Origin: Dehalococcoidia bacterium
GTDB taxonomy: Bacteria > Chloroflexota > Dehalococcoidia > Tepidiformales > Tepidiformaceae
Assembly: GCA_009841435.1 (NCBI GenBank)
Contig: VXLW01000015.1
Coordinates: 1 to 64,000, forward strand
Direction: 5' to 3'
DNA length: 64,000 nt
This document shows positions 26,932-29,575 of the stretch, piece by piece. How positions within the stretch are numbered: the stretch's first letter is position 1; every line of letters begins with the position of its first letter. A program made the position numbers and the translations under genes. The notes under the pieces were generated by a model that did no database searches, had not been told where the DNA came from, and saw nothing but the letters and a program-made list of their open reading frames with translations.

Positions 26932-26939
26932 GAGTCAAG
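26932..26939. repeat. Target site duplication, left copy
   Basis: GAGTCAAG immediately flanks the left terminal inverted repeat, and the identical octamer follows the right end at 29568-29575. Eight-base duplications are characteristic of the IS1595 family. The identity of both copies indicates a recent or at least intact insertion. Confidence 0.95.
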
Positions 26940-26962
26940 GGGGATTATAAAGGTAACTTGAC
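26940..26962 (+). repeat. Left terminal inverted repeat of the transposon
   Basis: A 23-bp end starting GGGGATTATAAAGG and ending in TTGAC; it is identical, in reverse complement, to 29545-29567. The TTGAC at its inner edge serves as the -35 hexamer of the passenger promoter (TTGACG, 26958-26963). Confidence 0.95.
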
Positions 26963-26987
26963 GGCGAGGGCAACGCGGGCCTACGCT
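26958..26987 (+). promoter_or_regulatory. Inward promoter of the methyltransferase-HNH gene
   Basis: TTGACG (26958-26963), 18-nt spacer, TACGCT (26982-26987), then 7 nt to the ATG at 26995. The -35 is the inner edge of the terminal repeat. With transcription starting about 7 nt after the -10, the mRNA would begin at the start codon, and there is no Shine-Dalgarno sequence. Assigned by pattern only. Confidence 0.5.
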
Positions 26988-26994
26988 CTCCCGC

Positions 26995-28200
26995 ATGCCG
27001 GAGCCGAACTTCGCGAGCCAGACGATCTGGACGGGTGACAACCTCCCGATCCTCCGGGGCCTCAACTCCGAGACGGTAGACCTCATCTACCTCGATCCCC
27101 CCTTCAACTCCAAGACTGACTACGCCGCGCCCATCGGCTCGCGCGCTGCGGGCGCAGCCTTCAAAGACACTTGGACGCTGCAAGACGTGGATGTCGCCTG
27201 GCTCGACCTCATCGAGGCGAAGCACCCGGCGCTCTGGCGCGTCGTGCAAGCCGCCATGACGCCGAGCGACAAGAGCTATCTCGTCTACATGGCGGCGCGG
27301 CTGCTGGAGATGCGGCGCATCCTCAAGCCGACCGGCTCGATCTTCCTCCACTGCGACCCGACGATGAGCCACTACCTCAAGCTCGTCATGGACGCGATTT
27401 ATGTCCGGGGGGGGGGCGCCTTCCGCAACGAGATCATCTGGTCTTACCGCCGCTGGCCATCGAAGCACTCGGACTTTCAACGGATGCACGATGTCATACT
27501 CCGCTACTCGCGCGGACCCGATGTCGTCTGGCACCAGCTCTTCGAGCCCGCCTCGGAGTCCTTCACGCGCCGATTCAAAGGCAAGGCCAATCGCCTCGAG
27601 CCAGGCGCGACCACAAAGCGCGCCGCAGAGCACGACACCCCCGGGCTTCCGATGCGCGACGTGTGGGACATCTCCATTCTCGCGGGCGCGTCCAAGGAGC
27701 GCGTCGGCTATCCGACGCAGAAACCTCGCGCGCTGTTGGAGCGGATCATCAAGGCGTCGAGCAATCCCGGCGAGGTCGTGTTGGATCCGTTCGCGGGCTG
27801 CGCGACCGCGTGCGTCGCCGCCGAGCTACTGGAGCGCCAGTGGGTAGGCATCGACATCTCGCCCAAGGCCGCGGACCTCGTGCGCGACCGGATGCAGCGC
27901 GAGGTCGGCATGTTCTACCGGGGCGCGACGCGCTCCGACGTGCCGCGCCGGACGGACATCGGGCGCGTGCCGGCCTACGGCTCGCGGGAGAACCGCGAGG
28001 CGCTCTACGGCCAGCAGGGGGGCCTCTGCAACGGGTGCCGCGAGCACTTCCGGCCTCAGCACCTGGAGGTCGACCACATCATCGCGCGGGCGCACGGCGG
28101 CACCGACCACATCGAGAATCTCCAGCTCTTGTGCGGGCACTGCAACCGCGTCAAGGGCGACCGGGGCCAGGAGTATCTGATCGCGAAGCTGGCGGCGTAG
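26995..28200 (+). CDS. DNA methyltransferase fused to HNH endonuclease
   Basis: A 401-residue fusion. Residues 1-310 form a beta-class DNA amino-methyltransferase: catalytic motif IV DPPF at 34-37 comes first and the AdoMet-binding DPFAGCATA motif comes late. DPPF points to N6-adenine methylation (inference). The last 75 residues are an HNH nuclease with zinc cysteines CNGC and CGHC around VDHIIARAHGGTDHIEN. So one polypeptide could both modify and cut DNA. A run of ten G (27407-27416) lies at codons 138-141; a slip of one base would truncate the protein. It is the passenger gene of the surrounding transposon, and the two small ORFs follow it closely. Confidence 0.9.
   Translation: MPEPNFASQTIWTGDNLPILRGLNSETVDLIYLDPPFNSKTDYAAPIGSRAAGAAFKDTWTLQDVDVAWLDLIEAKHPALWRVVQAAMTPSDKSYLVYMAARLLEMRRILKPTGSIFLHCDPTMSHYLKLVMDAIYVRGGGAFRNEIIWSYRRWPSKHSDFQRMHDVILRYSRGPDVVWHQLFEPASESFTRRFKGKANRLEPGATTKRAAEHDTPGLPMRDVWDISILAGASKERVGYPTQKPRALLERIIKASSNPGEVVLDPFAGCATACVAAELLERQWVGIDISPKAADLVRDRMQREVGMFYRGATRSDVPRRTDIGRVPAYGSRENREALYGQQGGLCNGCREHFRPQHLEVDHIIARAHGGTDHIENLQLLCGHCNRVKGDRGQEYLIAKLAA
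27407..27416 (+). repeat. G10 homopolymer inside the methyltransferase gene
   Basis: Ten consecutive G bases, read in frame as the end of Arg followed by Gly-Gly-Gly. It is the longest single-base run I noticed in the window. Such tracts in methyltransferase genes of other bacteria switch expression by slippage. In DNA this rich in G a chance origin is not excluded. Confidence 0.85.
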
Positions 28201-28208
28201 GGGGAAGC

Positions 28209-28454
28209 GTGACGAGCGACCGGCTCAGGAGTGACGACGCCCCGGGACTGCTGATGGTGATCGCGTTCTGTCTCACTCGCCGTCCGCGCGAGGAGTGGGA
28301 GCGTGTGCTGTCGAACATCGACACGGTGTCTGAGCTGCTAGCTTCGCAGTCTCGTCAAGAACGAGTGCTACGAACGATGCCGGAATGGTCAGCGTTCTTC
28401 CGTCGGCAGTGCGAGCTACTAGCGGAGATGGAGGTTCCCGATGAGCAACCATGA
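28209..28454 (+). CDS. Small transposon passenger ORF (81 residues)
   Basis: An 81-residue ORF beginning with GTG 8 bases after the methyltransferase-HNH stop, preceded by GGGGAAG. It is helical and Arg/Glu-rich (RRPREEWERVL, SRQERVLRTMPEW) with a hydrophobic LLMVIAFCL near residue 14. No family recognised. Close spacing suggests co-transcription with the methyltransferase fusion; it could be a specificity, immunity or regulatory partner, but nothing in the sequence proves this. Confidence 0.5.
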   Translation: MTSDRLRSDDAPGLLMVIAFCLTRRPREEWERVLSNIDTVSELLASQSRQERVLRTMPEWSAFFRRQCELLAEMEVPDEQP

Positions 28455-28623
28455 GCGGATCGTACCCGAGACGCGCAACCCCTACTACGGCGAGGCGACG
28501 GTCGAGGATGTCGCGCGCGCGGTGCTGCGCCCGCTACGACCGCGAGCCGTTCGGGAGCCCGTTGTCGGCGGTGAGGTCGGTGTAGAGAAGCCGACGCCCG
28601 ACGAGAGCGGCGACCACGTGTGA
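28441..28623 (+). CDS. Small transposon passenger ORF (60 residues)
   Basis: A 60-residue ORF whose ATG lies inside the end of the preceding 81-residue ORF (14-base overlap). The first half (RIVPETRNPYYGEATVEDVARAVLRP) looks like a genuine small soluble protein. The second half lies opposite the last 90 bases of the transposase gene, so its sequence is constrained by that gene. No family recognised; the reading frame may really end in a shared region. Confidence 0.4.
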   Translation: MSNHERIVPETRNPYYGEATVEDVARAVLRPLRPRAVREPVVGGEVGVEKPTPDESGDHV

Positions 28624-29514
28624 CATCTGCGCGAGGGTGTCCGCCTCGCGCAGATTGTGCTTCCCCGCGAACTGGCGCACGTAGCGGTCGAGATGCTTCG
28701 GGCTCATCTTGTGGTAGGTGCCCGCGTAAGCGCGCTTGAGCATCGACCAGAAGCTCTCGATGCCGTTCGTGTGCGCTTGCTCGACAACGTAGGTGCCGAC
28801 CGAGTGCTGCACCGCCGCGTGGCGGTACTCGCCGTCGAGGCGGGTGTAGGCGGCGTGGCCGTCGGAGTAGACCTGGGCGCCGCTCTCGGTGTGGCGGCGG
28901 ACGAAGCCGCGCAGCGTCGGGCCGTCGGTCGCGGCGATGGCGCGAGCGCGGACCTCGCCGGTCTCGCGGTCCTTGATGCCGACGACGGGGGCCTTGGCCG
29001 GAGTGTCGCCGCGCTCGCGGATGCGGTCGCGGTGCGAGGCGTGCTTGTTCTTCTCCAGCCCGCCGATGTACGTCTCATCGACCTCGACGGGACCGGCGAG
29101 CTGGCCGTCCGCCGGACCGGCCCACGCCTCGCGGATGCGGTGGAGCATGAACCACGCGGTCGGCTGCGAGACCTTGATGTCGCGCCGGAGCTTCATGCTC
29201 GACACGCCCTTGAGGCTCGTCATTTCGAGGTAGATCGCGATCGCCCACTTGCGCATCGGCACCTTGGAGTGCGAGAGCGCCGTGCCCGTCCGCACCGAGA
29301 AGTAGGAGCGGCAGTCGGTGCACCAGTAGGGCATCGGCTTCGCGTTCGGCACATCGCGGGTGGCGAGCGAGCCGCAGTGCCCGCAAGCGCGATCGTTCGG
29401 CCACACGAGACCCTCGAACCAGTCGGTCGCGGTGCTCTCGTCGGGGAACATCTCCATCAGCTCGATGAGGCTGATCCCCTCGCGGTAGGCCTTGCCGGGT
29501 GCGTTGTGTGTCAT
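28534..29514 (-). CDS. IS1595 family (ISXO2-like) transposase
   Basis: A 326-residue transposase. The N-terminal zinc ribbon has CGHC at residues 44-47 and CTDC at 65-68. The ISXO2-like DDE domain has Asp146 in VEVDETYIGG, Asp218 in VYSDGH and Glu253 in NGIESFW. All catalytic residues are present, so it appears active. It catalyses cut-and-paste or replicative movement of the surrounding element. The start codon is 6 nt after a TACACT -10 hexamer and there is no Shine-Dalgarno sequence. Its 3' end overlaps the 60-residue ORF on the other strand. Confidence 0.95.
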   Translation of the reverse strand: MTHNAPGKAYREGISLIELMEMFPDESTATDWFEGLVWPNDRACGHCGSLATRDVPNAKPMPYWCTDCRSYFSVRTGTALSHSKVPMRKWAIAIYLEMTSLKGVSSMKLRRDIKVSQPTAWFMLHRIREAWAGPADGQLAGPVEVDETYIGGLEKNKHASHRDRIRERGDTPAKAPVVGIKDRETGEVRARAIAATDGPTLRGFVRRHTESGAQVYSDGHAAYTRLDGEYRHAAVQHSVGTYVVEQAHTNGIESFWSMLKRAYAGTYHKMSPKHLDRYVRQFAGKHNLREADTLAQMSHVVAALVGRRLLYTDLTADNGLPNGSRS

Positions 29515-29520
29515 GGTCAG

Positions 29521-29549
29521 AGTGTAGGGGATGGGGCCCGCTGTGTCAA
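29521..29549 (-). promoter_or_regulatory. Inward promoter of the transposase gene
   Basis: Read on the minus strand: TTGACA (29544-29549), exactly 17 nt, TACACT (29521-29526), 6 nt, ATG. The consensus -35 is made by the last five bases of the terminal repeat plus one more. The layout mirrors the left-end promoter and predicts a leaderless transposase mRNA, a way to keep expression low and independent of the insertion site (inference). Confidence 0.6.
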
Positions 29550-29567
29550 GTTACCTTTATAATCCCC
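29545..29567 (-). repeat. Right terminal inverted repeat of the transposon
   Basis: A 23-bp sequence identical to the left end when read on the minus strand (GGGGATTATAAAGG...TTGAC). No mismatch between the two ends. Confidence 0.95.
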
Positions 29568-29575
29568 GAGTCAAG
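29568..29575. repeat. Target site duplication, right copy
   Basis: GAGTCAAG, identical to 26932-26939. Removing the element and one copy restores a compact divergent intergenic region between the TIMP-like gene and the gene at 29609. Confidence 0.95.

Follow-up and report, generated by a model that had tools for sequence, protein, structure and literature searches.

The window analysed here, a stretch of 64,000 nucleotides from a Dehalococcoidia bacterium (contig VXLW01000015.1), contains at positions 26940-29567 an intact transposon of the IS1595 family. The element is 2628 bp long and carries, in addition to its transposase gene, a gene for a DNA methyltransferase (MTase) fused to an HNH nuclease. 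Its terminal inverted repeats (TIRs) are identical at 23 of 23 bp and it is enclosed by a target-site duplication (TSD) of 8 bp. The features of the locus are as follows:

26932..26939, no strand: left copy of the TSD, GAGTCAAG
26940..26962, plus strand: left TIR, 23 bp, GGGGATTATAAAGGTAACTTGAC
26995..28200, plus strand: beta-class DNA methyltransferase with a C-terminal HNH nuclease, 401 aa
27436..27660, plus strand: target-recognition region (TRD), residues 148-222, hypervariable and swapped between relatives
27976..28182, plus strand: HNH nuclease domain, residues 328-396, with Zn-Cys4 and Asp360/His361/Asn375
28534..29514, minus strand: IS1595-family DDE transposase, 326 aa (Pfam and NCBIfam)
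29521..29549, minus strand: promoter-like site TTGACA-17-TACACT for the transposase (consensus match only)
29545..29567, minus strand: right TIR, 23 bp, identical to the left TIR
29568..29575, no strand: right copy of the TSD, GAGTCAAG

The element is present in a single copy in its own genome. When its flanks are joined, they match genomes of the same genus straight through the junction, and an empty state of the site therefore exists; in one of these genomes the alignment covers 287 bases (82 %) and GGGTCAAG is present just once where the element would be inserted. The transposase matches DDE_Tnp_IS1595 (PF12762, 1e-39) and the NCBIfam model transpos_IS1595 (NF033547, 178 bits; cut-off 75). 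A possible N-terminal zinc ribbon (PF12760) scores 21.3 bits, below the cut-off of 25.4; the domain is clear in the relative L098 (loci are designated here by L numbers). The enzyme would move the whole unit and thereby generate 8-bp target duplications. The -35 box of the promoter-like site of its gene extends into the right TIR at its inner end; two such sites were found where 0.1 were expected, and a weak counterpart (TTGACG-18-TACGCT) was recognised by eye for the MTase gene. The original prediction for this DNA, which had proposed an intact IS1595-type transposon on the grounds of its repeats, duplication and DDE transposase, is thus borne out, now also by the uninterrupted site in related genomes.

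The passenger protein exceeds the Pfam cut-offs both for PF01555 (N6_N4_Mtase, 7e-44, residues 28-295) and for PF01844 (HNH, 1e-12, residues 345-390). Since a DPPF motif (34-37) precedes the variable region, which is then followed by DPFAGCAT (264-271), the MTase belongs to the beta class, and the fusion of such an enzyme to an HNH domain stands as it had been proposed. The nearest solved structures are those of M.RsrI, CcrM, M.BceJIV and M.MboIIA. The HNH domain contains two CxxC pairs together with an Asp-His and an Asn; the four cysteines, Asp360 and Asn375 occur without exception in 53 intact homologues, and His361 in 51 of them. Both sets of catalytic motifs are hence intact in one polypeptide, which, judged from its sequence, most likely methylates and restricts through a single recognition module. 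An RNA-guided HNH nuclease of the IscB/Cas9 kind was rejected: the match is confined to the HNH stretch (40 bits, with a cut-off of 175) and a Pfam scan of the passenger gave no RuvC domain.

Two small plus-strand open reading frames (ORFs), 28209-28454 and 28441-28623, lie between the MTase-HNH and transposase genes. Neither has a family match, and a homologue of the first is absent from the related loci searched; they may be non-coding or orphan.

Recurrence of the fusion in mobile elements

A scan with one genome per species yielded 72 loci, to which others were added from extra genome searches and fetched stretches, and a uniform search was made for TIRs accompanied by an exact 8-bp TSD. 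In 33 elements these enclose the MTase gene. The same search on reversed sequences gave 0 of 57, so the bracketing is not due to chance. Those records that name an organism fall in seven phyla, the 33 elements thus representing seven or more, and three more elements from the phylum of the window (L227, L228 and L238) were found using the transposase as bait. The passenger therefore recurs in IS1595 transposons, and this recurrence, together with the TIRs and TSD, rules out that an element merely landed by chance next to an unrelated gene. A gammaproteobacterial chromosome harbours three copies of one element (L006-L008), each with a different TSD, which documents recent movement directly.

Four loci (L010, L023, L031 and L093) are bounded by ends of a very different kind (GGTAGTG...). 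Pfam assigns the transposase of L023 and L093 to the IS1 type, and L010 encodes a relative of it. Because these IS1 carriers occupy separate spots in the MTase tree, the MTase gene must have moved between transposon families. In L025 (5935-7256), a TIR/TSD unit of 1322 bp with IS1595-type ends and an 8-bp TSD contains the MTase-HNH gene without a transposase and is likely a non-autonomous cassette. A second unit, L031:5692-7405, has IS1-type ends and an MTase gene without a transposase or an exact 8-bp TSD; both are candidates for movement in trans. In the IS1-type carriers, a short ORF of about 75 aa immediately precedes the MTase gene (L010:5743-5967, L023:5741-5959, L031:5754-5972). The L010 and L023 versions, at least, resemble each other, and that of L023 has no Pfam match.

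Among the intact MTase-HNH ORFs of the genome scan, 17 of 39 are transposon-linked, i.e., adjacent to an IS1595 or IS1 transposase or bracketed by TIRs and TSD; the fraction becomes 24 of 46 when broken or split genes are counted too. Contig ends and decay make this share a lower bound. A family residing mostly outside transposons had been named in advance as evidence against a mobile device, and on this point the figures are borderline. Three loci without a detectable element (L013, L015 and L036) have chromosomal neighbours in common. Viral contigs contained no close relative of the passenger. In plasmids and phages the matches concern mainly the MTase part, at no more than about 45 % identity, and none of those listed reaches the end of the HNH domain. 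A metagenome-assembled genome of Poribacteria (JAPPNK) encodes four MTase-HNH paralogues (L020, L026, L047 and L064) with no detectable transposon, of which at least L020 and L047 differ in their recognition region. One locus record belongs to Candidatus Synechococcus spongiarum, and many isolate names resemble those of sponge metagenome projects.

Exchange of recognition regions and nucleases

Within the MTase, residues 148-222 have a modal frequency of 0.39; the core on either side reaches 0.73 and 0.69, and the HNH domain 0.65. In pairwise comparisons these residues have a median identity of 0.17, and the core one of 0.60. In close pairs the TRD has been replaced wholesale and the rest retained. 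This is the case for L024/L028 (core 96 %, TRD 33 %, nuclease 84 % identical), L170/L171 (91, 42 and 75 %), L085/L086 (90, 39 and 85 %) and L020/L047, both of which reside in one genome (92, 36 and 89 %). Core and TRD similarities are only weakly correlated (Mantel rho 0.28).

DNA methylation regulates some insertion sequences, e.g., IS10 and IS50. With a transposase promoter-like site that overlaps the right TIR, the MTase of the window could in principle modify the ends or promoters of its own element and so regulate transposition, with the nuclease part aiding the process, as the original prediction had suggested for the ends. However, the TRD does not track the TIRs: no correlation between their similarities was detectable among 16 elements (Mantel rho 0.08, p 0.15), a set in which weak correlations could escape. 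In L024 and L028 the TRDs differ, with TIRs and cores being almost the same; the reverse applies to the window and L012, whose TRDs are of one type but whose TIRs differ and whose transposases are distant. Moreover, many IS1595 elements move without an MTase-HNH gene, which is itself also found in IS1 elements and outside transposons. Self-modification of this kind thus appears highly improbable. The swapping of TRDs and their independence from the TIRs fit a restriction-modification enzyme with changing specificity rather than one tuned to the ends of the element.

The same MTase core is C-terminally fused to three unrelated nuclease folds, namely HNH, PD-(D/Q)XK (Mrr-like) and a GIY-YIG-like domain. 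HNH is therefore one of three interchangeable folds, which had been missed in the original prediction. By profile, 17 cores carry the Mrr-like domain, whose motif D-GIDG...QVK is of the PD-(D/Q)XK type; in L058 the assignment is based on Pfam, this motif and the predicted fold, the sequence of its PD domain having found no match in the PDB. The third domain, T5orf172, which we take to belong to the GIY-YIG superfamily, is found in L170, L171 and L223, and its carriers form one clade within the HNH-rich part of the MTase tree. Elements with TIRs and TSD occur with each nuclease: many with HNH, L058, L091, L098 and L188 with PD, and L170 with T5orf172. HNH similarity follows core similarity (Mantel rho 0.76), and the ratio of non-synonymous to synonymous substitution rates (dN/dS) of the nuclease, where measurable, is 0.03-0.20, i.e., the domain is under purifying selection.

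That three unrelated folds fill the same place argues that it is for cutting that selection maintains the C-terminal end. It also bears on the alternative that the passenger is an orphan-type protective MTase, involved in anti-restriction or regulation, whose C-terminal domain only aids DNA binding. MTase-only members (L030 and L031) would agree with such a role, and HNH residues by themselves are no proof of cutting, but the exchange of folds, the invariance or near-invariance of catalytic-type HNH residues and the purifying selection on the nuclease are difficult to reconcile with it. We consider it very unlikely.

An alternative of a different nature is an addiction module, in which the enzyme would mainly serve to retain the transposon: cells that lose it could no longer protect their sites and would be cut. 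Restriction-modification genes can indeed behave selfishly and may stabilise mobile units (PMC3031569), and the gene considered here has been spread over phyla by transposition. However, with one chain holding both activities, these should dilute together after loss, which would weaken killing; separate neighbouring ORFs for MTase and HNH, as in L089 and L010, are exceptions. Addiction also explains the selection for new recognition regions less directly than does defence. Of the two devices originally envisaged, mobile restriction-modification is consequently the better supported, given the 33 bracketed elements, while addiction is possible in a weakened form and seems to us unlikely.

Other IS1595 passengers were sampled from genomes holding an MTase locus, a sample thereby biased towards MTase-bearing genomes, and evenly from the phylum of the window. 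IS1595 elements were found with an EcoRI-type MTase and a GmrSD_N-HNH protein (L181), an N6_N4 MTase and an ORF without family assignment (L189), a 1094-aa Eco57I-like protein (L215), or a D12 MTase and a PDDEXK_11 nuclease (L243). L190 encodes the same pair of proteins as L181 and has TIRs, the element being cut by a contig end. Further elements contain membrane or lipoprotein-like genes, or the transposase alone (L185 and L220). The genome of the window has another IS1595-type element on contig C13 (L225:3954-7476), again with TIRs and an 8-bp TSD; there, a stop lies within the transposase frame and the passenger is a SocA/Panacea antitoxin-like gene.

Proposed activity and relation to known systems

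The element of the window is probably a self-contained IS1595-family transposon which carries a single-chain Type II (IIC-like) restriction-modification enzyme. We favour this interpretation because the catalytic motifs are intact, three nuclease folds occur in bracketed IS1595 elements and TRDs are replaced, and because the 33 bracketed elements are accompanied by other IS1595 elements with restriction-modification-like gene pairs. Several points weigh against it. Cleavage, methylation and phage protection are predictions only; in the predicted structure the MTase core is good and the HNH part is of low confidence; about half of the intact homologues lie outside any detectable transposon; and members without a nuclease exist.

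The MTase half would read a short site via its variable recognition region and methylate it, probably at adenine-N6, while the HNH half would cut DNA in which this site is unmethylated. The host, and hence the element, would be shielded from phages and from competing mobile DNA. In a naive cell methylation should precede cutting, since methylation would be carried out by the monomer and two-strand cutting by a single nuclease site needs transient dimers; this would allow a newly transposed or transferred module to become established. The same order, monomers methylating before dimers cut, has been put forward for Type IIC enzymes in a review, where it is theoretical too (PMC12707154).

Like Eco57I, MmeI and BtgZI, the passenger combines methylation and a nuclease in one polypeptide, presumably with one recognition module. 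Type IIC enzymes are described as mostly consisting of an N-terminal PD-(D/E)XK domain and a gamma-class MTase, BtgZI being an exception with an alpha-class MTase and a C-terminal PD-(D/Q)XK (PMC4081073). The passenger family resembles BtgZI in having the MTase first and the nuclease last, and its PD variants likewise have Q in place of E (PMC4081073). The passenger departs from the common layout of Type IIC/IIG enzymes: a beta-class MTase precedes an HNH (or PD or GIY-YIG-like) domain, the protein is small, at about 400 aa, and is carried by a unit transposon. This lowers its membership in the common Type IIC subtype, not in the functional class, because the layout is ascribed to 'the majority' and BtgZI deviates from it; a beta-class MTase with a C-terminal HNH is not named in the passages of PMC4081073 consulted. 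In MboII-like systems an HNH nuclease is also paired with a beta-class MTase, M.MboIIA being among the closest solved structures, but the two are encoded by separate genes instead of one fused protein.

IS1595 elements with passengers are already known (PMC5704250, PMC3129680). tISCpe8 and MTnSag1 similarly combine a DDE transposase of the IS1595 type with an internal passenger between TIRs of about 25 bp (PMC5704250), but theirs provide resistance or mobilisation functions, whereas that of the window is a restriction-modification enzyme which recurs in many elements. Restriction-modification genes also move by transposition elsewhere, e.g., PaeR7I, in composite units flanked by insertion sequence copies (PMC3031569). 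In contrast to such composites, the enzyme described here is carried inside a single unit transposon of 2.6 kb, with a family that extends across phyla. We found no published report of a restriction-modification fusion inside an IS1595 transposon in the literature searched, from which the IS1595-defining paper was missing.

On balance, we lean towards the view that IS1595 elements, and some IS1 elements, act across phyla as dedicated immunity transposons, i.e., small DDE transposons in which a standard position for passengers is occupied by compact restriction-modification enzymes. In these, the recognition region and the type of nuclease (HNH, PD-(D/E)XK or GIY-YIG) would be exchanged as modules, so that transposition would generate and spread new specificities. 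If true, new restriction specificities would be spread by ordinary transposons of 2-4 kb and not only by islands, plasmids and composite insertion sequence units. The family may serve as a source for finding new compact restriction enzymes, and as a natural set in which one MTase is combined with three nuclease folds it would allow one to ask how a single recognition module directs the two activities, marking and cutting. It also offers a concrete way to ask whether transposon-borne immunity is for the benefit of the host or for that of the transposon itself.
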